Of a DNA stretch of 64,000 nucleotides, positions 8,417-43,838 are shown piece by piece. The notes beneath the pieces were generated by a model that was not told where the DNA came from, ran no database searches, and worked only from the letters and a program-made list of their open reading frames with translations. The stretch comes from Microbacterium sp. nov. GSS16 (lineage in GTDB: Bacteria > Actinomycetota > Actinomycetes > Actinomycetales > Microbacteriaceae). Made by a program: the position numbers and the translations under genes. The stretch is from assembly GCF_028198145.1 (NCBI RefSeq), contig NZ_CP116338.1:1240001-1304000 (forward strand). The letters are read 5' to 3'. Numbering within the stretch: the first letter of the stretch is position 1; every line of letters starts with the position of its first letter.

Positions 8417-10936
<2,520 letters not shown>

Positions 10937-37478: not shown

Positions 37479-38408
37479 TCAGACGGCCAGCCGGGCGACG
37501 GCGAGATCCTGCCACCCCATGCCGCAGGTCTTCACGATCCGCGGGCGGTCGGTCGCAGCGGTGGTCGCGCCGGTGAACAGCTCGTGCATCGTCACGACGT
37601 CGTCGAGGCGCAGCATCCCCGCCTCGACGGCGACGATCACGTCACCGGCCTCGGATGCCGCGACCCGACGGCTCTCCACGACGACCTGCGATCGCCCGAC
37701 GAGCGCCGGGTCGAGCTCGGTGCGGTCGGGCTCGTGCGAGCCTATCGCGACGATCGTCGCGTCGTCGCGCACCGACGCGGAGGGGAACAGGGGAGCGGAT
37801 GCCGTGGTCGCGCACACGATGAGGTCGGCGGCCGCGATGTCGTCGAAGGTGCCTGCGCGCATGTCGGCGTCGGGTGCGTAGGAGCGGGAGGCCTCGACGG
37901 CGGATGCCGCGCGCCCGGCATCCCGCCCGATGATGCGCACCGAGCGCAGCGGGCGGATCGCCGCGAATGCCTCGACGTGACGGATCGACTGCGGCCCGGT
38001 GCCGATGACGACGAGGTCGCCGGCGGTCTCGCTGGCAAGCACGTCCGCGCAGGCGGCGGACACCGCCGGGGTGCGCAGGCTCGTCAGCGCGGTGCCGTCG
38101 AGGATGGCGGTGGGGGCGAGGGTCTGGCCGTCTACGAGGATGTAGACGCCCTGGATGCGCTCGAGACCCCGCTCGGGGTTACCGGGCGCGACCGTGGCGA
38201 ACTTCTGCCCCACGGCGCCGCCCGCTGCGGCGGGCATGAGCAGCAGCTGCCCGTTGGGGACGTCGAGGATCTGCCGAGCGAGGTCGTGCTCGGGGTCGAA
38301 ACCGTCTCGCAGCGTGCTCTGCACGGCCGCGATGGCGGCGGGCATGCTGACCCGCTCGGCGAGCAGCTGTGCGTTGACCAGGGCGAGATCGGCGATGACG
38401 TCGGGCAT
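37479..38408 (-). CDS. Ornithine cyclodeaminase/mu-crystallin family, probable pyrroline-2-carboxylate reductase
   Basis: 309 residues. GLERIQGVYILVDGQTLAPT, LRTPAVSAACADVLA, the NAD-binding VVIGTGPQSIRHVEAFAAIR and IVCATTASAPLF are family motifs. Next to proline racemases these enzymes usually reduce delta-1-pyrroline-2-carboxylate to proline. A promoter-like pair TGACAT-N16-TAGATT ends 6 bp before the ATG, suggesting a leaderless mRNA, and the shared TGTCAC site overlaps its -35. First gene of the racemase-amidohydrolase operon. Confidence 0.9.
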   Translation of the reverse strand: MPDVIADLALVNAQLLAERVSMPAAIAAVQSTLRDGFDPEHDLARQILDVPNGQLLLMPAAAGGAVGQKFATVAPGNPERGLERIQGVYILVDGQTLAPTAILDGTALTSLRTPAVSAACADVLASETAGDLVVIGTGPQSIRHVEAFAAIRPLRSVRIIGRDAGRAASAVEASRSYAPDADMRAGTFDDIAAADLIVCATTASAPLFPSASVRDDATIVAIGSHEPDRTELDPALVGRSQVVVESRRVAASEAGDVIVAVEAGMLRLDDVVTMHELFTGATTAATDRPRIVKTCGMGWQDLAVARLAV

Positions 38409-38429
38409 GCTCCCAATCTAGGTTCAAAT

Positions 38430-38450
38430 CAGTAATATGTCACGCGCTAT
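38430..38450 (-). promoter_or_regulatory. Putative FCD-regulator site C, cyclodeaminase operon
   Basis: On the plus strand CAGTAATATGTCACGCGCTA followed by T, 18/21 identical to the liv-operon site. Its TGACAT complement overlaps the apparent -35 of the minus-strand promoter, as expected for a repressor site. Confidence 0.6.
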
Positions 38451-38515
38451 CGATGTTGATCGCCGGTGTCGCTGTCGATTCGCGCAGCGGTGGCGTATGT
38501 CGTAAGCTGGACGAC

Positions 38516-38606
38516 GGTGACGTGTCCGAGCGGCCGAAGGTGCAACTCTCGAAAAGTTGTGTAGGGTAACCCCCTACCGTGGGTTCAAATCCCACCGTCA
38601 CCGCCA
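38516..38606 (+). tRNA. tRNA-Ser (CGA)
   Basis: Acceptor stem GGTGACG (38516-38522) with CGTCACC (38596-38602), discriminator G, encoded CCA (38604-38606). The anticodon stem-loop CAACT-CTCGAAA-AGTTG gives anticodon CGA (codon UCG). A long variable arm (TGTAGGGTAACCCCCTACC region) and GGGTTCAAATCCC T arm complete a class II tRNA of 91 nt. Confidence 0.97.
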
Positions 38607-38610
38607 TGGA

Positions 38611-38632
38611 AACCCCCGAGAAATCGGGGGTT
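38611..38632 (+). terminator. tRNA-Ser terminator
   Basis: AACCCCCGA-gaaa-TCGGGGGTT with following TTCG, 4 bp after the tRNA. A typical intrinsic terminator. The stretch 38633-38863 has no convincing gene and no recognisable integrase. Confidence 0.9.
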
Positions 38633-38863
38633 TTCGCGTATCTAGACACCGCGTGGTGCATCCTTGGTGCATATTCCGGACGTCGATGGAAACTTCGCGG
38701 GGATCTGGCGCTCTTAGAGTCCGGTAGGTCTTGGACGACACGAGCCTCTAAGTGCGGTAGCGCGCTTAAGGGGGAGGACCGCTCATCAAGGTTCGAGTGT
38801 GTCAGCCGTATGCTCGCGGGATGGTTCGGCGACGCCCAGACAAGCTGATCCCAACGTCTCAGT

Positions 38864-40135
38864 TCAGGTTCCCGTGCGCGCGGCTCTCCGTCGCGTTCCC
38901 TCGCTCCACTCCGCACCAGAGGCAGGAACGGCGGCGCAGAGGATCCATCCATCCGCTGTCGCTTCCGACTGCAGCTGCCCTCCCTGGTGGATGAGGCGCT
39001 GGCGGGCGCGCACGAGGCCCCGTCCGGTGCCGCCGATCGCTCCTTTGGCCAGCGGTGTCGAGACGTTCGTCACGACGAGCTCGACGGTGCCGGGCTGACG
39101 AAGGACCTCCACGCTCGCGGAGCGCGAGTTCGGGGCGTGCTTGAGGATGTTGGTGACGGCCTCTATCGCGGCCTCCGTGAGTGCTCGATCCGCAGCGGGC
39201 GTCGCACCGAGCGGAATGCGAGGCGTGGACACGCGTGTCGGGATGCGGGCATCCTTCAGCAAGTCTCCGAGCGATGCCACCACCTCTACGAGGTCGCCCG
39301 CATACCGTGTCGGTCTTGCCTCTGTGACCTCCGGGCGGGTCTCACGAATCAACGACAGCAGCGATTGGACGCTCTGCAACGCCTTCTCGGCAGAGTCCTC
39401 GATGGTCGAGAGGGACACCTGCCGTGCCGCCTCGTCTGGCTGCCGCGGCAGTGCGCGGGCGTGGAACAGCACGAGCGTGAGATCGTGCGCGATCCCGTCG
39501 TGCAGCTCATCGGCGATCCGCTCCTGTTCCTCCCGTGCCAACGTCTCAAGATCGCTCATCACGCGGGCACGTTCCGAGGCGAAGATCGCCTCCCGTGCTG
39601 AGACGAGCCGAAAGGTGAGACCTGCGAGGAACGCGATCATCGCGATGCCGGCGACCCCGAAGACACCGCCGTCGGTGAGGGATGAGCCGTTGAGGGCGAT
39701 GTCCGCGGTGAGCATGCCGAGAACCAGGACGTGGATCACGATCCCCCAGGGTGCGCATGTCGCTGCCACCAGTCCCAGCGCGATGGCCAGCTCGAGAAGA
39801 TCGCCGGCGCTGCCGGTCAGCACCGCACCGAGGCTGCAGATGACCATGACCATGAACGCTGCGGTCAGTGGGTGCCACGCGAAGGCTGCGATGGCGGCAT
39901 AGAGCATCAGCGCAAGCAGGTCCGCACGTGCGAAGCGTCCGGCTGCGACGATGAAGCCGACAGCGATGCACACCAGGACGCTCACGACGACGATGAGCAG
40001 AATCCGGGCGATCGGGTGCAGGGAACGCTGCTGCCAGAACTCTCTGGAAGCGAGCATGCGGCGCAGAGACGTCCGTCCCGGGTCGGAGAGCGTCAGCTCA
40101 GCACCGGCGCGAGGACGATCGCGCTGTTCAGGCAC
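38864..40135 (-). CDS. Multi-pass histidine kinase of NarL-type system
   Basis: Up to 423 residues from GTG 40135; an internal ATG 26 codons later is an alternative. The N-terminal half holds five to six hydrophobic helices (ILLIVVVSVLVCIAVGFIVA, LLALMLYAAIAAFAWHPLTA and more) and no extracellular domain. The dimerisation/phosphorylation segment is EEQERIADELHDGIAHDLTL with the phospho-histidine in ELHD, and the ATPase domain has ALTEAAIEAVTNILKHA and GGTGRGLVRARQR. The start overlaps the 3' end of the 35-residue peptide gene by 8 bp, so the two are probably translationally coupled. Partner of the divergent regulator at 40398. Confidence 0.93.
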   Translation of the reverse strand: MPEQRDRPRAGAELTLSDPGRTSLRRMLASREFWQQRSLHPIARILLIVVVSVLVCIAVGFIVAAGRFARADLLALMLYAAIAAFAWHPLTAAFMVMVICSLGAVLTGSAGDLLELAIALGLVAATCAPWGIVIHVLVLGMLTADIALNGSSLTDGGVFGVAGIAMIAFLAGLTFRLVSAREAIFASERARVMSDLETLAREEQERIADELHDGIAHDLTLVLFHARALPRQPDEAARQVSLSTIEDSAEKALQSVQSLLSLIRETRPEVTEARPTRYAGDLVEVVASLGDLLKDARIPTRVSTPRIPLGATPAADRALTEAAIEAVTNILKHAPNSRSASVEVLRQPGTVELVVTNVSTPLAKGAIGGTGRGLVRARQRLIHQGGQLQSEATADGWILCAAVPASGAEWSEGTRRRAARTGT

Positions 40136-40235
40136 AAATCCCCATCACCTTGCACAGCCAGTCGCCGAGGTCCGCATTCGCTCCAGCAGCCAGTCGGACG
40201 AACGATGCGATGCCGTACATGGTCGAGGTGGGCAT
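40128..40235 (-). CDS. 35-residue two-cysteine peptide, candidate signal or bacteriocin
   Basis: ATG 40235 has GAGGAG 5 nt upstream, the best ribosome-binding site in the locus. The product begins MPTSTMYGIASFVRLAAGAN and ends ADLGDWLCKVMGICA, with Cys28 and Cys34 in the last eight residues and an amphipathic middle. The stop lies inside the kinase gene (8-bp overlap). There is no Sec signal, no GG leader and no modification enzyme nearby. It is too short for ordinary gene finders. I do not recognise a family. Its place directly before a sensor kinase suggests an inducing peptide; a leaderless bacteriocin is another reading. Confidence 0.7.
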   Translation of the reverse strand: MPTSTMYGIASFVRLAAGANADLGDWLCKVMGICA

Positions 40236-40313
40236 GGTGACTCCTCACGGTCAGGACGCGAGCCGACGCCTGCCCGAGCGGGCGGCGTCGTCCCGGAACA
40301 TGGATGTTCCTAC

Positions 40314-40319
40314 ACACTA
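40314..40319 (-). promoter_or_regulatory. Candidate -10 of the peptide-kinase promoter
   Basis: TAGTGT on the minus strand. Its upstream end is 36-37 bp from the centre of the inverted repeat at 40349-40362, the same distance as between the second repeat and the TAGGTT hexamer before the secreted-protein gene. Confidence 0.4.
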
Positions 40320-40346
40320 CGTCGCACCTCCCCAGGGCCCGAGAAC

Positions 40347-40364
40347 CATAGCCCTGGGGCTACA
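40347..40364. promoter_or_regulatory. Response-regulator box 1 (divergent promoter)
   Basis: CATAGC-CCTGGG-GCTACA, with the inner perfect inverted repeat TAGCCC-TG-GGGCTA at 40349-40362. It lies between the peptide-kinase operon and the response-regulator gene. An extra half-site CCCAGGGC (40331-40338) is complementary to GCCCTGGG (40351-40358). Confidence 0.7.
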
Positions 40365-40397
40365 GATCCGCCGTCGCCCGCGCGATAGCGTGTTGAG

Positions 40398-41048
40398 GTG
40401 AGTGAAGCGGTGCGCGTTCTCGTCGTCGACGATGAGGCCCTGGTGCGCCACGCCCTTCGCGCATTCGTCGCTGACGACGTACGGGTCACCCTCGTGGGAG
40501 AAGCCCAAGACGGCTCCGAGGTCGTCGAGGCCTGCCGGCAGTCTCAGCCGGATGTGGTGCTGATGGACATCAAGATGCCCGAGATCAGCGGCGTCGAGGC
40601 CACCCGTCGTGTCCTGGAGTGGAACCCGCGCTGCCGCATAGTCGCGCTGACGACGTTCACCACCGAGTGGCGCGCCCTCGAGGTGCTACATGCCGGTGCC
40701 TGCGGATACCTGGTGAAGAACTCCACCCCGGAACAGATCATCGATGCCATCGTCGCCGCCCACGCCGGCGACCGCGTCGTCTCGCCAGAAGTGCAAGAGC
40801 GATTCGTGCGCGCCGCGATCGATTCCGGCGACGGACGCTTCACCGATGGCCCGGCGCTCAGTGACCGAGAGCGGCAGGTCATCGAGCTGATCGCGAAGGG
40901 CATGTCCAACTCTGAGATCGCGGACGAGCTCCACTACGCCGAGAGCACGGTGAAGGCCGACATCCGGCGCATCAATCAGCTGTGGGGCGTCGAGAACCGC
41001 CTGCAGATTGTTCTGCGTGCCACCGAGCTCGGGATCATCAGCCTCTGA
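40398..41048 (+). CDS. NarL/FixJ-family response regulator
   Basis: 216 residues from GTG 40398. Receiver domain with VLVVDDEALVRHALRAFVAD, phospho-aspartate in VVLMDIKMPEISG and the late lysine in GYLVKNSTPEQ; C-terminal LuxR helix-turn-helix ALSDRERQVIELIAKGMSNS then EIADELHYAESTVKADIRRI. No Shine-Dalgarno is seen, and a TAGCGT hexamer (40386-40391) places the transcription start at about the GTG, so the mRNA is probably leaderless. Likely binds the three inverted repeats of this locus. Confidence 0.95.
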   Translation: MSEAVRVLVVDDEALVRHALRAFVADDVRVTLVGEAQDGSEVVEACRQSQPDVVLMDIKMPEISGVEATRRVLEWNPRCRIVALTTFTTEWRALEVLHAGACGYLVKNSTPEQIIDAIVAAHAGDRVVSPEVQERFVRAAIDSGDGRFTDGPALSDRERQVIELIAKGMSNSEIADELHYAESTVKADIRRINQLWGVENRLQIVLRATELGIISL

Positions 41049-41065
41049 CCCCACGGTAAGCAATT

Positions 41066-41083
41066 CATAGCCCCAGCGCTATG
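41066..41083 (+). promoter_or_regulatory. Response-regulator box 2
   Basis: CATAGC-CCCAGC-GCTATG, perfect 6-bp arms with 6-nt centre, 81 bp before the secreted-protein start codon. A TAGGTT hexamer (41111-41116) begins about 36 bp from its centre. Confidence 0.7.
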
Positions 41084-41163
41084 GACCCGTTTCGCGCCTT
41101 ATCGCGCTCATAGGTTGAGAGTGCGGTTCGACCACCGAATCGCGAAGAGACGGAGGAACAACG

Positions 41164-41799
41164 ATGAAGTTCAAAACCGCTGTACTCGGGGTCGTGGCGG
41201 CGCTTGCGCTCGGAACTATAGCCGCGCCTGCGCAAGCGTCGGAGCCGCTGCCGGACGATTCGATGTTCTTCTCCTCAAAAGACCTCGATGCGATGTCACC
41301 GAATGGTGGGGCCGCTCTGGACCCCGACGTGTTTCTCCACGGGCTGGAGGAGCTCGAAGCCTCGCCTGTGGAGCGGAACGAGATCACCGAGGACGGCCAC
41401 ACGTTCTATCAATACGTCGTCCCCGAAGGCTCGCTGACGCTGCCGAGCGCCGCTGATGTCCGCGCAGCGATCGACGCAGATGCGTCGGCACCCTCGTCCG
41501 CGCCGAGCGACGTGATCACACCTTTCCTTGAGGTTCGCTTCTCCGGCATCAAGATGGCGGTCGGCTTCAACACTGTCGACCAGCAGGCTCTCGCTGCAGG
41601 AGGTGGGGCTGCGGTCGCCGCAGCTCTGTGTCTGATCCCGGGGGTCGGCTGGGCCGCCTGCACAGTCATCGGGATCGTCGTCGGTGTTGCCACCACCTAC
41701 CTCGTCGCGAACGGGATCTGCAGCGGTGGCCGCACCCTCTGGTGGTACGACGTCAAGGGCGGATCTGTGATCAACTGTCGTTCAACCGCACCGTTCTGA
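41164..41799 (+). CDS. Secreted protein with hydrophobic four-cysteine C-terminus, bacteriocin-precursor-like
   Basis: 211 residues, GGAGGA 6 nt before the ATG. Sec signal MKFKTAVLGVVAALALGTIA with probable cleavage after AQA (residue 25), then an acidic region to about residue 118, then a Gly/Ala/Val-rich segment (141-184, including AAGGGAAVAAALCLIPGVGW) and a tail with Trp-Trp. All four cysteines (156, 166, 186, 205) are in the last 60 residues. The layout, signal plus acidic pro-region plus hydrophobic toxin-like C-terminus, recalls SdpC or halocin C8 precursors, but no clear homology is seen. It heads a probable operon with the two small membrane-protein genes. Confidence 0.85.
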   Translation: MKFKTAVLGVVAALALGTIAAPAQASEPLPDDSMFFSSKDLDAMSPNGGAALDPDVFLHGLEELEASPVERNEITEDGHTFYQYVVPEGSLTLPSAADVRAAIDADASAPSSAPSDVITPFLEVRFSGIKMAVGFNTVDQQALAAGGGAAVAAALCLIPGVGWAACTVIGIVVGVATTYLVANGICSGGRTLWWYDVKGGSVINCRSTAPF

Positions 41800-41824
41800 C
41801 TAGGAACCGGAAAGAGGTAAGCCC

Positions 41825-42016
41825 ATGCGATCTTGGCTGATCTTCATAGGAAGCGTCGTCGCGGCCCTAGTTGTCCTCGCGCTGCTGGCGACTAGCTTTC
41901 CCTCAGGATCTTCGATCATCTTCCTCATAGGCACTCCGATTGTCGTTGTCGGCGCAGGCTTGGGGGCGAAGCTCGTCCAGCGCAGGAACAGAGCCTTGCG
42001 GGGAGAAAGCCTCTAG
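41825..42016 (+). CDS. Small membrane protein, candidate immunity protein
   Basis: 63 residues, GAGG 7 nt before the ATG. Two hydrophobic helices (WLIFIGSVVAALVVLALLAT and SIIFLIGTPIVVVGAGLGAK) and a basic tail (LVQRRNRALRGESL). Starts 25 bp after the secreted-protein stop. Size and topology fit a bacteriocin immunity protein; no family is recognised. Confidence 0.75.
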   Translation: MRSWLIFIGSVVAALVVLALLATSFPSGSSIIFLIGTPIVVVGAGLGAKLVQRRNRALRGESL

Positions 42017-42019
42017 CTG

Positions 42020-42283
42020 TTGGCAATCCAGCCCGTCGACGCAAGAAAGGTCACAGAAATACCCACGGACAACCCGTATATGACCTTCGGCCTGAGGCTC
42101 GGCGTCCTCGGCAAGAGGATCGGCGTCGGCCTGGCGATCCCGAGCTTCATCGTCGAAGTCGGAACCACGATGGGCGCGGCTCTGTCGTCCTCCGGCACGA
42201 TCGCACTCATCGCGTTCGTCGTACTCTCCGTGGTGCTCAGCGTCGCCACGCGACGCCAGAAGCCGATCGGTGGGCACGCCTGA
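42020..42283 (+). CDS. Small membrane protein
   Basis: 87 residues from TTG 42020, or 67 from ATG 42080 (MTFGLRLGVLGKRIGVGLAI); neither has a strong ribosome-binding site. One clear C-terminal helix (GTIALIAFVVLSVVLSVATR) and a weaker earlier one (GVGLAIPSFIVEVGTTMG). Ends with RRQKPIGGHA. Third gene of the probable operon; the strong terminator follows. Confidence 0.65.
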   Translation: MAIQPVDARKVTEIPTDNPYMTFGLRLGVLGKRIGVGLAIPSFIVEVGTTMGAALSSSGTIALIAFVVLSVVLSVATRRQKPIGGHA

Positions 42284-42292
42284 TCACCGAGA

Positions 42293-42331
42293 CACGAAAG
42301 AGGGGCTCGGATTTCGGGCCCCCCTTTCGTG
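42293..42331 (+). terminator. Terminator of the secreted-protein operon
   Basis: CACGAAAG (42293-42300) pairs with CTTTCGTG (42324-42331), and inside it GGGGC pairs with GCCCC, with one internal mismatch. Confidence 0.8.
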
Positions 42332-42360
42332 TGCCTTAGCGAACGACATCGCGGTGAAGG

Positions 42361-42377
42361 TGCAGCCCTGGGGCTAG
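42361..42377 (+). promoter_or_regulatory. Response-regulator box 3
   Basis: TGCAGC-CCTGGG-GCTAG repeats the centre and right arm of box 1 (AGCCCTGGGGCTA shared, 13 of 13). It is 99 bp before the 60-residue membrane-protein gene. The left arm has CAG instead of TAG. Confidence 0.6.
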
Positions 42378-42475
42378 AAGCGGACGCTGGGCCTTGGTCG
42401 ACCGCCGGCAGCCAGACACGATGGACGCAAGATTCCCGGCGACGAACCCGCTCCAGCCCGAGCAGAGAGACCAAG

Positions 42476-42658
42476 ATGCCCCGAACCCTCGCACAACACC
42501 TGACGGTGTCGCTCCCGCTCGTCGGCGTCGCCTTCCTGCTGGCCTCAATGCTCCTCCCGGTCCAGTTCGCGGCCGCCGCGTGGGCGCTCGCGATGATCGT
42601 GTTCCTCACGGCGCTCGCCTGTGCGCTCTACGGCCAGTGGCAGCGCCGCATAGACTGA
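42476..42658 (+). CDS. Small two-helix membrane protein
   Basis: 60 residues from ATG 42476 with a weak GAGAGA upstream. Two hydrophobic helices (LTVSLPLVGVAFLLASMLLP and AAAAWALAMIVFLTALACAL) and a short basic end (YGQWQRRID). Preceded by box 3, so probably expressed with the rest of the locus. No family recognised. Confidence 0.7.
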   Translation: MPRTLAQHLTVSLPLVGVAFLLASMLLPVQFAAAAWALAMIVFLTALACALYGQWQRRID

Positions 42659-42679
42659 ACCGATCTCATTCGAGAGCCT

Positions 42680-43397
42680 TCAGTTCCAGTTCATCCCGTG
42701 CGCGCGGCTGTCCAGCGCGTTCTTCCAGAACGACTCGCGAGTCAGGATCGTGTCAGCTCGGGTCTTGGGGTCGAAGATCTCCAGGATTGAGTACGAAAAG
42801 TTGTCCACGATGTGCCCATCGCCAAAATCATTTCGGATCTGCTCGAGCTCCCGATTGCCACCGGTGAAGACTTTCAAGTGCGCGTAGCTGGACCAGCGCT
42901 GCCACAGCCCGTTGGCGTCCCCGGATGCTGACCGACCCGACGTACAGCCGCCCGCAGCTCAGGTCGGTGATGACGTAGACGCCCTTCACGCTGGAGAGCG
43001 CATCCTTCCAACTGGGCTCGTCGCCGGCGATGATGCGCTGCAGCTCGTGATGCCGCAGCCGGACGTTCTGGTACCCCGGGAAGGTGCCGAGCTTGACGTC
43101 GGGCGCGAGCTCGTAAACCTCCGGGGCGAGCAGGCTCTCCTGAAGCCCCACGTAGTGACGCAGGCACGGAGTCCGACCGATGGGCCTGTCGAGCTTGACG
43201 ATGAGGCGCTTGATGAACTGCTCGTGCAGCGGTAAGGGCGTCAGATCGTGGCCGTGATCGTCCAACCGATCAGGCTTGATCTCGGTCACCTCGAACGCGC
43301 CGCCGAACATGAAGTACTGCGGCCCATAGGGGTAATACTGCGCGAACGACAGCAGGTAGCGAGCGAGCGTGCCCGGACGATGCGCGTCTGCCGGCGG
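42680..43397 (-). pseudogene. Truncated and frameshifted GIY-YIG nuclease
   Basis: The first part, read from just after the lipoprotein stop, encodes ARYLLSFAQYYPYGPQYFMF and later VKGVYVITDLSCGRLYVGS, the GIY-YIG core. After a GGGG run (plus-strand CCCC, 42920-42923) the frame is lost; with one G removed it continues DANGLWQRWSSYAHLKVFTG through SYSILEIFDPKTRADTILTR to the family-typical end RAHGMNWN. No start codon exists before the internal ATG at 43310, and a stop at 43398-43400 closes the frame. The gene therefore lacks its N-terminus and has a frameshift. Confidence 0.85.
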
Positions 43398-43838
43398 TCA
43401 CTTCCCCCGCGCGTCCGCGCGCTCCGCGTCGGAGTTCGGCGTCCAGCCGAACCAGCCGTCATCGGCAGGGATCACACTCCAGTCGCCGCAGGCGAAGACG
43501 GTCTTGGCCGCGTACGGGTCGGGCGCGCCGTCGAGCGTCCACACCGGAGCCGAGCGCCGCTCCACATCCGCGCAGTAGCCGGCGAGAGCGAAGTCACCGG
43601 TGAGCAGGATGACGGCGTCGTCGGAGCTCTCCGACGTCGACGTGCGCACAATGATGTCGGTGGCGTCGGCGGGGATCCACGGCGCGTCGACGTCCGCCTC
43701 GGCACGGAAAGCCGCGAGATCGTCGAAGGTGTGCGTGGACTGGTGGTGGACGAGCTCCTCGTACACCGCGCATCCGGTCAGGGACAACCCCGCTGCGGCG
43801 ATCAGAGCGGAAGCGGCGAGGGCTGTGCGTGCGTTCAT
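43398..43838 (-). CDS. Lipoprotein of unknown function
   Basis: 146 residues from ATG 43838. Lipobox LSLTGC (Cys23), then an acidic extracellular domain with two more cysteines (AGYCADVE, VFACGDWS) and the end GWFGWTPNSDAERADARGK. The motif WIPADATDIIVRTSTSE is seen in several actinobacterial lipoproteins of unknown role. Normal codon use. The upstream extension of the frame lacks a ribosome-binding site. Confidence 0.8.
   Translation of the reverse strand: MNARTALAASALIAAAGLSLTGCAVYEELVHHQSTHTFDDLAAFRAEADVDAPWIPADATDIIVRTSTSESSDDAVILLTGDFALAGYCADVERRSAPVWTLDGAPDPYAAKTVFACGDWSVIPADDGWFGWTPNSDAERADARGK

Follow-up and report, generated by a model that had tools for sequence, protein, structure and literature searches.

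The locus is located at positions 38864–42658 of the window, the 64,000-nucleotide stretch of the Microbacterium sp. nov. GSS16 genome analyzed here. Its minus strand encodes a 35-amino acid peptide (40128–40235; Cys28 and Cys34; C-terminal core WLCKVMGICA) and, directly downstream, a multi-pass sensor histidine kinase (38864–40135; HisKA_3 match, E 3.2e-9) for which the peptide is the proposed ligand. A NarL/LuxR-type regulator with Response_reg and GerE matches (40398–41048) diverges from this pair on the plus strand; the kinase and regulator are members of ordinary families. The regulator is followed on the plus strand by a predicted secreted, bacteriocin-like protein of 211 amino acids with a four-cysteine hydrophobic C-terminal domain (41164–41799), termed class-1 cargo, and by three small membrane proteins having two hydrophobic segments each. 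These are sm1 (63 amino acids, 41825–42016), a candidate immunity protein for class-1 cargo; sm2 (72 amino acids, 42065–42283; the start is uncertain, a TTG at 42020 being possible and yielding 87 amino acids), which may be an orphan conferring immunity to class-2 cargo; and sm3 (60 amino acids, 42476–42658), which may also serve in immunity. Copies of a 29-nt direct repeat (90% between copies) flank the module on both sides, the left inside the 3' end of the kinase gene (38870–38898) and the right at 42694–42722. The left neighbor, the sole flanking gene examined, belongs to the ornithine cyclodeaminase/mu-crystallin family. An initial annotation of this DNA had listed the same peptide, kinase, regulator, secreted protein, and three small proteins, all of which are present, as well as an adjoining tRNA gene, which is tRNA-Ser(CGA) (38516–38606). 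An Rfam scan of 38400–43400 returned this tRNA and no other RNA. Neither the secreted protein nor the sensor domain has a match in 72,556 plasmid records. No exporter occurs among the genes of 38864–43310, and the locus scans turned up neither a leader nor a processing or modifying enzyme; in line with the annotation, they met no ABC exporter, double-glycine leader, or SdpAB-like protein.

The annotation had proposed looking for a conserved neighborhood, and the module does recur in other genomes, far beyond the window. The same kinase has a relative of the peptide with a WLCKxxGICA end immediately before it in eight of 99 genomes of the genus (this one included) and in three further genomes from two other genera, among 398 genomes of the family searched. 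The tryptophan and the cysteine pair are invariant in the aligned peptides, and the pattern W[LM]CxxxG[IF]C is confined to these peptides across all loci collected. Comparison of ten peptides, none of which has a double glycine, indicates that the C-terminal codons are under purifying selection (pS 0.61, pN 0.12, pooled over non-independent pairs) and that the N-terminal codons, which were compared ungapped so that both pS and pN are inflated, are not. By these comparative measures the 35-amino acid reading frame is a real gene. It overlaps the start of the kinase gene by 8 nt (GTGCCTGA); this potential kinase start closes the peptide reading frame in all eight loci, and the kinase is called from it in five.

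The kinase has six hydrophobic segments by a simple hydropathy count, and its sensor domain is a bundle of such segments. We found this domain in 17 genomes (G131/G311, G149/G218, and G448/G1126 are near-duplicate pairs), with a W[LM]CxxxG[IF]C peptide directly upstream in 15; in the remaining two (G448 and G1126), the upstream reading frame is 15 amino acids long and has no cysteine. Because peptide-bearing loci went into the sensor profiles A3 and A6, only G043, G149, G218, G448, G1126, and G1096 constitute blind tests for the peptide. At these loci, found by sensor domain alone, the motif peptide lies upstream in four of six genomes, or three of four lineages. The motif is retained where the sensor is only 27–35% identical, and also in another family. 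The regulator is 77–93% identical in seven other Microbacterium modules.

The annotation took the kinase and regulator to belong with the peptide and the secreted gene. The tie to the peptide stands in 15 of the 17 sensor genomes and gives way in the two with the cysteine-less reading frame. The tie to the secreted gene gives way at five loci, all of the sensor family, which have no cargo beside the module among their called genes (L035, L074, L089, L092, and L093). Conversely, relatives of the class-1 gene exist in genomes with no detected peptide, and the palindrome described below is missing there (eight secreted-gene relatives). As module and secreted gene each occur alone, peptide, kinase, and regulator are the constant core, and the secreted protein is an exchangeable cargo. 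Comparison across genomes shows this conserved unit together with a candidate operator and the genes behind it.

The overlap at GTGCCTGA would also suit a leader acting in cis on kinase translation, by coupling or attenuation, whose peptide product is functionless, as would the frequency with which the kinase is called from this site. We consider this very improbable, as what is conserved at the C-terminus is the amino acids and not the bases, and the motif survives both at low sensor identity and in another family. A second alternative is that the peptide is an unreleased micro-protein that binds the transmembrane domain of the kinase and tunes its activity to an envelope cue, with the rest of the locus working as set out below. 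The overlap is as expected of a subunit synthesized together with the kinase, the sensor is a hydrophobic bundle, and leader, exporter, and modifying enzyme are all missing from the locus. In addition, many peptide pheromones show strain-specific variants, unlike the invariant core seen here, which has none. The invariant cysteine pair near the tryptophan fits instead a disulfide-closed extracellular ligand, and we regard the micro-protein as rather unlikely, if still worth weighing.

A palindrome with the consensus TRGCCCYRGGGCYA is found three times in the window: between the divergent peptide–kinase and regulator genes, which share it (40349–40362, 14/14), ahead of the secreted protein gene (41068–41081, 13/14), and ahead of sm3 (42363–42376, 13/14). 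The annotation had noted an inverted repeat before each transcription unit, and these prove to be one palindrome in three places. Within the 2.9-Mb genome, 55 sites match at two or fewer mismatches and only four at one or none, three of these four being the module sites. Of 300 shuffles of each promoter region, 0, 0, and 1 reached the score of the real sequence, and the three palindromes are more than chance. Among module promoters, 25 of 27 have a palindrome of at least 13/14; the peptide/regulator site of L031 (11/14) is by itself not significant (34 of 300 shuffles). Counts per genome at one mismatch overlap between ten peptide genomes (3–6) and 12 others (0–6); the two groups differ in perfect sites and in site position. 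The consensus was widened after inspection of the first eight loci; in four later cases (L039, L040, L041, and L050), each region has a palindrome of at least 13/14. In G022, the secreted gene is distant from the module and retains the palindrome. Visual inspection suggested a shared operator in L085 as well, which is not claimed here, since three of 60 shuffles were as good or better.

Class-1 cargo has a signal-peptide-like N-terminus and is represented by 38 database rows (its own included), and its Cys 156, 166, 186, and 205 are invariant in 20 aligned sequences. Between genomes, the cargo is swapped for unrelated signal-peptide proteins whose C-termini are hydrophobic and mostly cysteine-bearing, several of them paired with a small membrane protein of their own. 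Cargos of classes 1 to 3 all begin with signal-peptide-like N-termini; that they form one sequence family was rejected (hhalign probabilities of 21% and 9%). Pfam, NCBIfam, PADLOC, and PHROGs gave neither a toxin family nor a name for the secreted or small proteins of the window, in agreement with the annotation, which had recognized none of the small proteins. Pfam searched to E 1 returns no family for class-1 cargo, and the weak library matches listed for these proteins are below curated cut-offs where such exist. The sole notable match among cargos of relatives is that of a 340-amino acid protein in L020 to DUF2599 (E 5.9e-5, just under the cut-off). Comparison with solved structures by sequence yielded nothing convincing, and a fold search with the class-1 model (pLDDT 72.6) gave no match at E ≤ 0.001; the class-2 model is weak (pLDDT 64.3).

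The small membrane proteins follow the cargo by type. Besides the window, sm1 adjoins class-1 cargo in L018, L002, and L003, and a divergent sm1 does so in L007; it was not found beside class-1 cargo in L004, L005, L006, and L008 (four of nine tested). In L032 and L041, sm2 directly follows class-2 cargo, and in L075 and L076 it directly follows class-2 fragments; it is kept also in the operator-bearing remnant G021 and in the window, where there is no class-2 gene. In L077, inspection alone suggested a class-2 remnant ahead of sm2, which tblastn did not recover. Relatives of sm3 occur in L021, L031, L033, L034, and L035 (60–83% identity); a further match in G021 had come from DNA preceding sm3 and was lost when the 60-amino acid protein served as query. 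Cargo and small protein are matched by type for four cargo types, and orphan small proteins persist at loci with missing or degraded cargo, as is expected of immunity genes. Cargo swapping, cargo/small-protein pairing, and orphan retention thus emerge from the genome comparison, and a division into cognate and orphan immunity genes suits the small proteins better than a single functional set.

The secreted proteins could instead be other exports, for example surface-active or envelope proteins, with the small proteins as membrane partners or chaperones. Neither a toxin family nor a fold was matched, and the class-1 C-terminus is also present in Corynebacterium, Acaricomes, and Pseudokineococcus, in which the peptide was not found. 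That one regulated position is occupied by unrelated cargos in different genomes speaks for bacteriocins, and orphan partners and partners beside cargo fragments are hard to reconcile with chaperones, making this alternative distinctly unlikely. Cargo with matched immunity proteins is also typical of population-level control, a point against the unreleased micro-protein.

The comparative evidence supports the peptide-controlled bacteriocin reading of the initial annotation, at a locus without a known exporter or modifying enzyme. We assign a probability of roughly 0.6 to its being an actinobacterial bacteriocin/immunity module under peptide control, apparently of a type not yet described. This reading is favored by the conservation of the peptide with the kinase and the selection on its C-terminus; by palindromes at module promoters, including that of the distant G022 cargo; and by unrelated cargos of like layout, type-paired small proteins, and the position of sm2 beside class-2 fragments. 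Counting against it are the locus lacking exporter, leader, and processing enzyme, the five cargo-less sensor loci, the two of 17 sensor genomes without the cysteine motif, the four of nine class-1 cargos without sm1, the overlapping one-mismatch counts, the 11/14 site in L031, and the absence of a solved fold like class-1 cargo. From this arrangement we infer that the peptide, translated just ahead of the overlapping kinase, is released and sensed as the kinase ligand, its active part being the C-terminal W-L-C-x3-G-I-C. The kinase would signal to the NarL-type regulator, which would bind the palindrome and turn on its own promoter and the peptide–kinase operon, a positive feedback, along with cargo and sm3. 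Cargo would be exported by Sec and cleaved in a linker of low conservation, and the C-terminal domain, hydrophobic and rich in disulfides, may attack membranes of competing relatives. Overall, expression of a secreted bacteriocin-like protein and of small membrane proteins is probably switched on here by a very small peptide encoded next to its sensor, and the membrane proteins probably protect against such secreted proteins: sm1 would protect the producer, and the orphan sm2, perhaps with sm3, would guard against cargos of neighbors.

Firmicutes provide the best-described cases of peptide quorum sensing. For Microbacterium, a 2016 review noted no evidence that quorum sensing exists, "not even bioinformatic" (PMC4748050). 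Our search of the open-access literature (subscription papers and preprints outside its scope) found no paper on these families. One motif, one sensor family, and one operator make a testable signaling system with a likely regulon, and several unnamed bacteriocin-like families with matching immunity candidates occur in Microbacteriaceae. With leader and exporter missing from the locus, the question arises by which route the peptide reaches its receptor. More tentatively, and with somewhat less than even odds, the leaderless signals (W-L-C-x3-G-I/F-C, 27–35 amino acids, possibly 21 in one lineage), the membrane-embedded kinase sensor, the absence of a dedicated exporter or modifying enzyme, and the swappable Sec-secreted bacteriocin/immunity cassette may define an Actinobacteria-native class of peptide quorum sensing.

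Several known systems resemble the module in part. The blp (pneumocin) locus of Streptococcus pneumoniae has a peptide signal, a two-component pair, and exchangeable bacteriocin and small membrane immunity genes, the latter outnumbering the bacteriocins; its peptides carry double-glycine leaders and are served by an ABC exporter, BlpAB (PMC4860687). Peptide signal, two-component pair, and exchangeable set with a surplus of immunity candidates are alike in the module, with the likeness here being one of layout and shared palindrome, as read from genes; the module differs in its Sec-type cargo signals, signal peptide without a double glycine, lack of an exporter in the locus, and regulator with a GerE output domain. 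In ComQXPA of Bacillus, a short pheromone gene lies just before a HisKA_3-type multi-pass kinase and a LuxR-type regulator. The ComX pheromone has a conserved tryptophan near the C-terminus and is prenylated in its mature form, ComQ being the isoprenyl transferase. The module shares the HisKA_3 kinase, the LuxR-type regulator, the peptide gene directly upstream of the kinase, and the conserved tryptophan near the peptide C-terminus, whereas its regulator is divergent and its peptide has an invariant cysteine pair. ComP-ComX is mentioned in PMC8895600. No ComQ-like prenyl transferase occurs among the called module genes of the window and the relatives inspected. Agr systems have a short peptide with a conserved cysteine, a multi-pass kinase, and the protease/exporter AgrB. 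The short cysteine-bearing peptide and multi-pass kinase are similar here, while kinase and regulator are of other types, and AgrB has no match among the locus proteins scanned. Toxins of the SdpC and halocin C8 type comprise a signal peptide, a pro-region, and a hydrophobic disulfide-rich C-terminal toxin. SdpC is accompanied by the maturation proteins SdpA and SdpB and the immunity protein SdpI. In Pfam and NCBIfam searched to E 1, no SdpC or halocin C8 model was reported for proteins of the locus or for cargos, and no Sdp model of any kind for the locus proteins. The cargos resemble these toxins in their layout of signal peptide and hydrophobic disulfide-rich C-terminus, and differ from them in that separate two-segment small membrane proteins adjoin the cargo.

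The genome, assembled as one contig of 2.9 Mb, carries the module with a tRNA-Ser(CGA) gene on its left and, on its right, a gene whose reading is divided over two frames (42680–43310); a 160-amino acid piece of this split gene had no Pfam match up to an E-value of 1. The leftmost gene of the module, on the minus strand, encodes a HisKA_3 kinase, the start of which is overlapped by the gene for a 35-amino acid peptide. A NarL-type regulator gene is divergent from the kinase gene, and to its right lie the genes for a 211-amino acid secreted protein (the cargo) and for the small membrane proteins sm1 (41825–42016), sm2 (42065–42283), and sm3 (42476–42658), in that order. The module is bracketed by a 29-nt direct repeat (38870–38898 and 42694–42722; copies 90% identical), which is possibly a trace of its insertion.

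The peptide gene is real and is conserved. Relatives occur in 8 of 99 genus genomes, own genome counted, and a profile search matched 4 of 398 family genomes, namely the own genome and three in two other genera. All of the first eight peptides end in GICA followed by a stop and are preceded by a ribosome-site-like stretch, and in 8/8 loci the peptide ORF is closed by GTGCCTGA, which would start the kinase. For ten peptides (34–35 amino acids with the starts chosen for codon comparison), pS was 0.61 and pN 0.12 at codons −16 to −3, while the values at codons −34 to −17 were 0.60 and 0.55; the C-terminus is under constraint and the N-terminus is free of it. In a six-frame reading of all loci compared, the motif W[LM]C...G[IF]C.stop was found at these peptides only. 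The invariant cysteine pair suggests a disulfide.

Peptide and kinase go together. Kinase residues 1–190, used alone as a sensor query (E ≤ 1e-10), matched 9 of 99 genus genomes: the eight with the peptide and G043, whose sensor is 35% identical to that of the window and whose kinase gene is directly preceded by a 30-amino acid ORF ending in PTWLCEVFGICD. Sensor profiles matched 7/398 family, 3/394 class, and 5/366 order genomes, these sets overlapping. Among the new sensor cases, G149 and G218 have a 27-amino acid ORF ending in FFEWLCQMFGICS, and G1096, from another family, has an ORF ending in WTWLCEASGFCK (21 amino acids from ATG or 36 from an upstream GTG). In all, the motif peptide is present in 15 of 17 sensor genomes. 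The kinase and regulator genes of L089 (G448) and L093 (G1126), a pair distantly related to that of the module, sit between gyrB-like and gyrA-like genes, and the kinase is preceded by a conserved 15-amino acid ORF, MGIFY(I/V)FGKMIGIFR, which has a strong ribosome site and is without cysteine.

We propose that the peptide would activate the kinase, which would phosphorylate the regulator; the regulator would then bind a 14-nt palindrome and turn on the peptide-kinase, regulator, cargo, and small genes. The module itself encodes no leader, exporter, or modifying enzyme. We favor, with a probability of about 0.6, a leaderless peptide that leaves the cell through a general route, partitioning into the membrane; that it instead stays inside the cell as a subunit of the kinase is the less probable reading, at roughly one chance in three. 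The module would work like the pneumococcal blp locus (PMC4860687), from which it differs in lacking the leader and exporter features, and like ComQXPA, but without a ComQ in the locus. No description of the system was found in the literature searched, nor in the accessible portions of PMC8895600 and PMC4748050. The small parts of the module belong to unnamed families.

A single operator appears to unite the peptide/regulator, cargo, and sm3 units. The palindrome lies 48–49 bp upstream of the regulator start in eight Microbacterium loci and recurs before the cargo and before sm3. Of 27 module promoters, 25 carry it with a score of 13/14 or better; the remaining two score 12 (sm3 of L033) and 11 (peptide/regulator of L031). 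The own genome has four sites with at most one mismatch, three of them in the module (40349, 41068, and 42363). In 22 other genomes scanned at the same tolerance, ten with the peptide had 3–6 sites and 12 without it had 0–6; because these counts overlap, site number alone does not separate the groups. Perfect palindromes do: among the matches listed, which include none from G172, 10/10 from peptide genomes lie inside modules (G023 and G035 have no perfect site), and the 12 other genomes have one, in G021. Eight class-1-like relatives (class 1 being the cargo type of the window), in genomes where no peptide was found, score at most 11/14 upstream. In G022, the secreted gene, accompanied by sm1, is separated from the module by 2.97 Mb of contig, or by 0.7 Mb in the opposite direction should the contig be circular. 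This gene retains a 13/14 palindrome and is preceded by a piece 85% identical to regulator residues 170–216, as if this position had once held a whole module.

Cargo is exchanged between genomes, different secreted proteins standing behind the regulator or a nearby palindrome. Class 1 occurs in the window and, in trans, in G022; class 2 in L032 and L041; and class 3 in L031, L039, and L040. Single cargos are found in L020 (340 amino acids), L021 (250 amino acids, C-terminus weakly like class 1), L033 (222 amino acids), and L034 (219 or 246 amino acids). L035 has no cargo nearby, and L074, L089, L092, and L093 have no secreted cargo-type gene next to the module. The distant module of G218 and G149 is followed by a 180-amino acid protein that looks secreted, is hydrophobic at its C-terminus, and has two cysteines, and by a 123-amino acid membrane protein. 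Database rows number 38, 18, and 22 for classes 1, 2, and 3, the queries' own records counted. Homology among the three classes was not convincing on comparison. They share a layout of signal-peptide-like start, pro-region, poorly conserved stretch, and hydrophobic, cysteine-bearing, strongly conserved C-terminus. The hydrophobic C-terminal part of class 1 is shared by Acaricomes, by three Corynebacterium genomes, and by a Pseudokineococcus contig (L008–L012), genomes with no convincing peptide match. Two class-2/class-3 rows bear public names that are probably misannotations: 'outer membrane protein' in Microbacterium testaceum StLB037 and 'Ammonium transporter' in Labedella.

The small proteins behave, by their genomic distribution, like candidate immunity genes. 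Class 1 is accompanied by sm1 in the window, L018, L002, and L003, and by a divergent sm1 in L007; sm1 was not found in class-1 loci L004, L005, L006, and L008. Class 2 is accompanied by sm2 (L032 and L041), class 3 by a 70-amino acid protein (L031, L039, and L040), and the L021-type cargo by a 64-amino acid protein (L021 and L022). Partners also occur without their cargo: sm2 in the window, which has no class-2 or class-3 gene within its 64 kb, and sm1 and sm2 in L031, where the absence of class 1 is less certain as the genome (G046) is 81% complete. In L050 (G021:C1:277001–287000), two sm2-type genes adjoin a perfect palindrome in a genome where searches for the peptide, the sensor, and class-1 cargo found none of them, and this locus is probably an immunity-only remnant. 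In L075 (G003) and L076 (G050), sm2 is intact and the preceding class 2 only a fragment, the asymmetry expected if the toxin is lost while protection still pays. The secreted protein of L022 (G004, 9200–10107), whose gene has no palindrome, resembles the L021 cargo with one C-terminal cysteine replaced, and the 64-amino acid protein next to it is 54% identical to the L021 partner.
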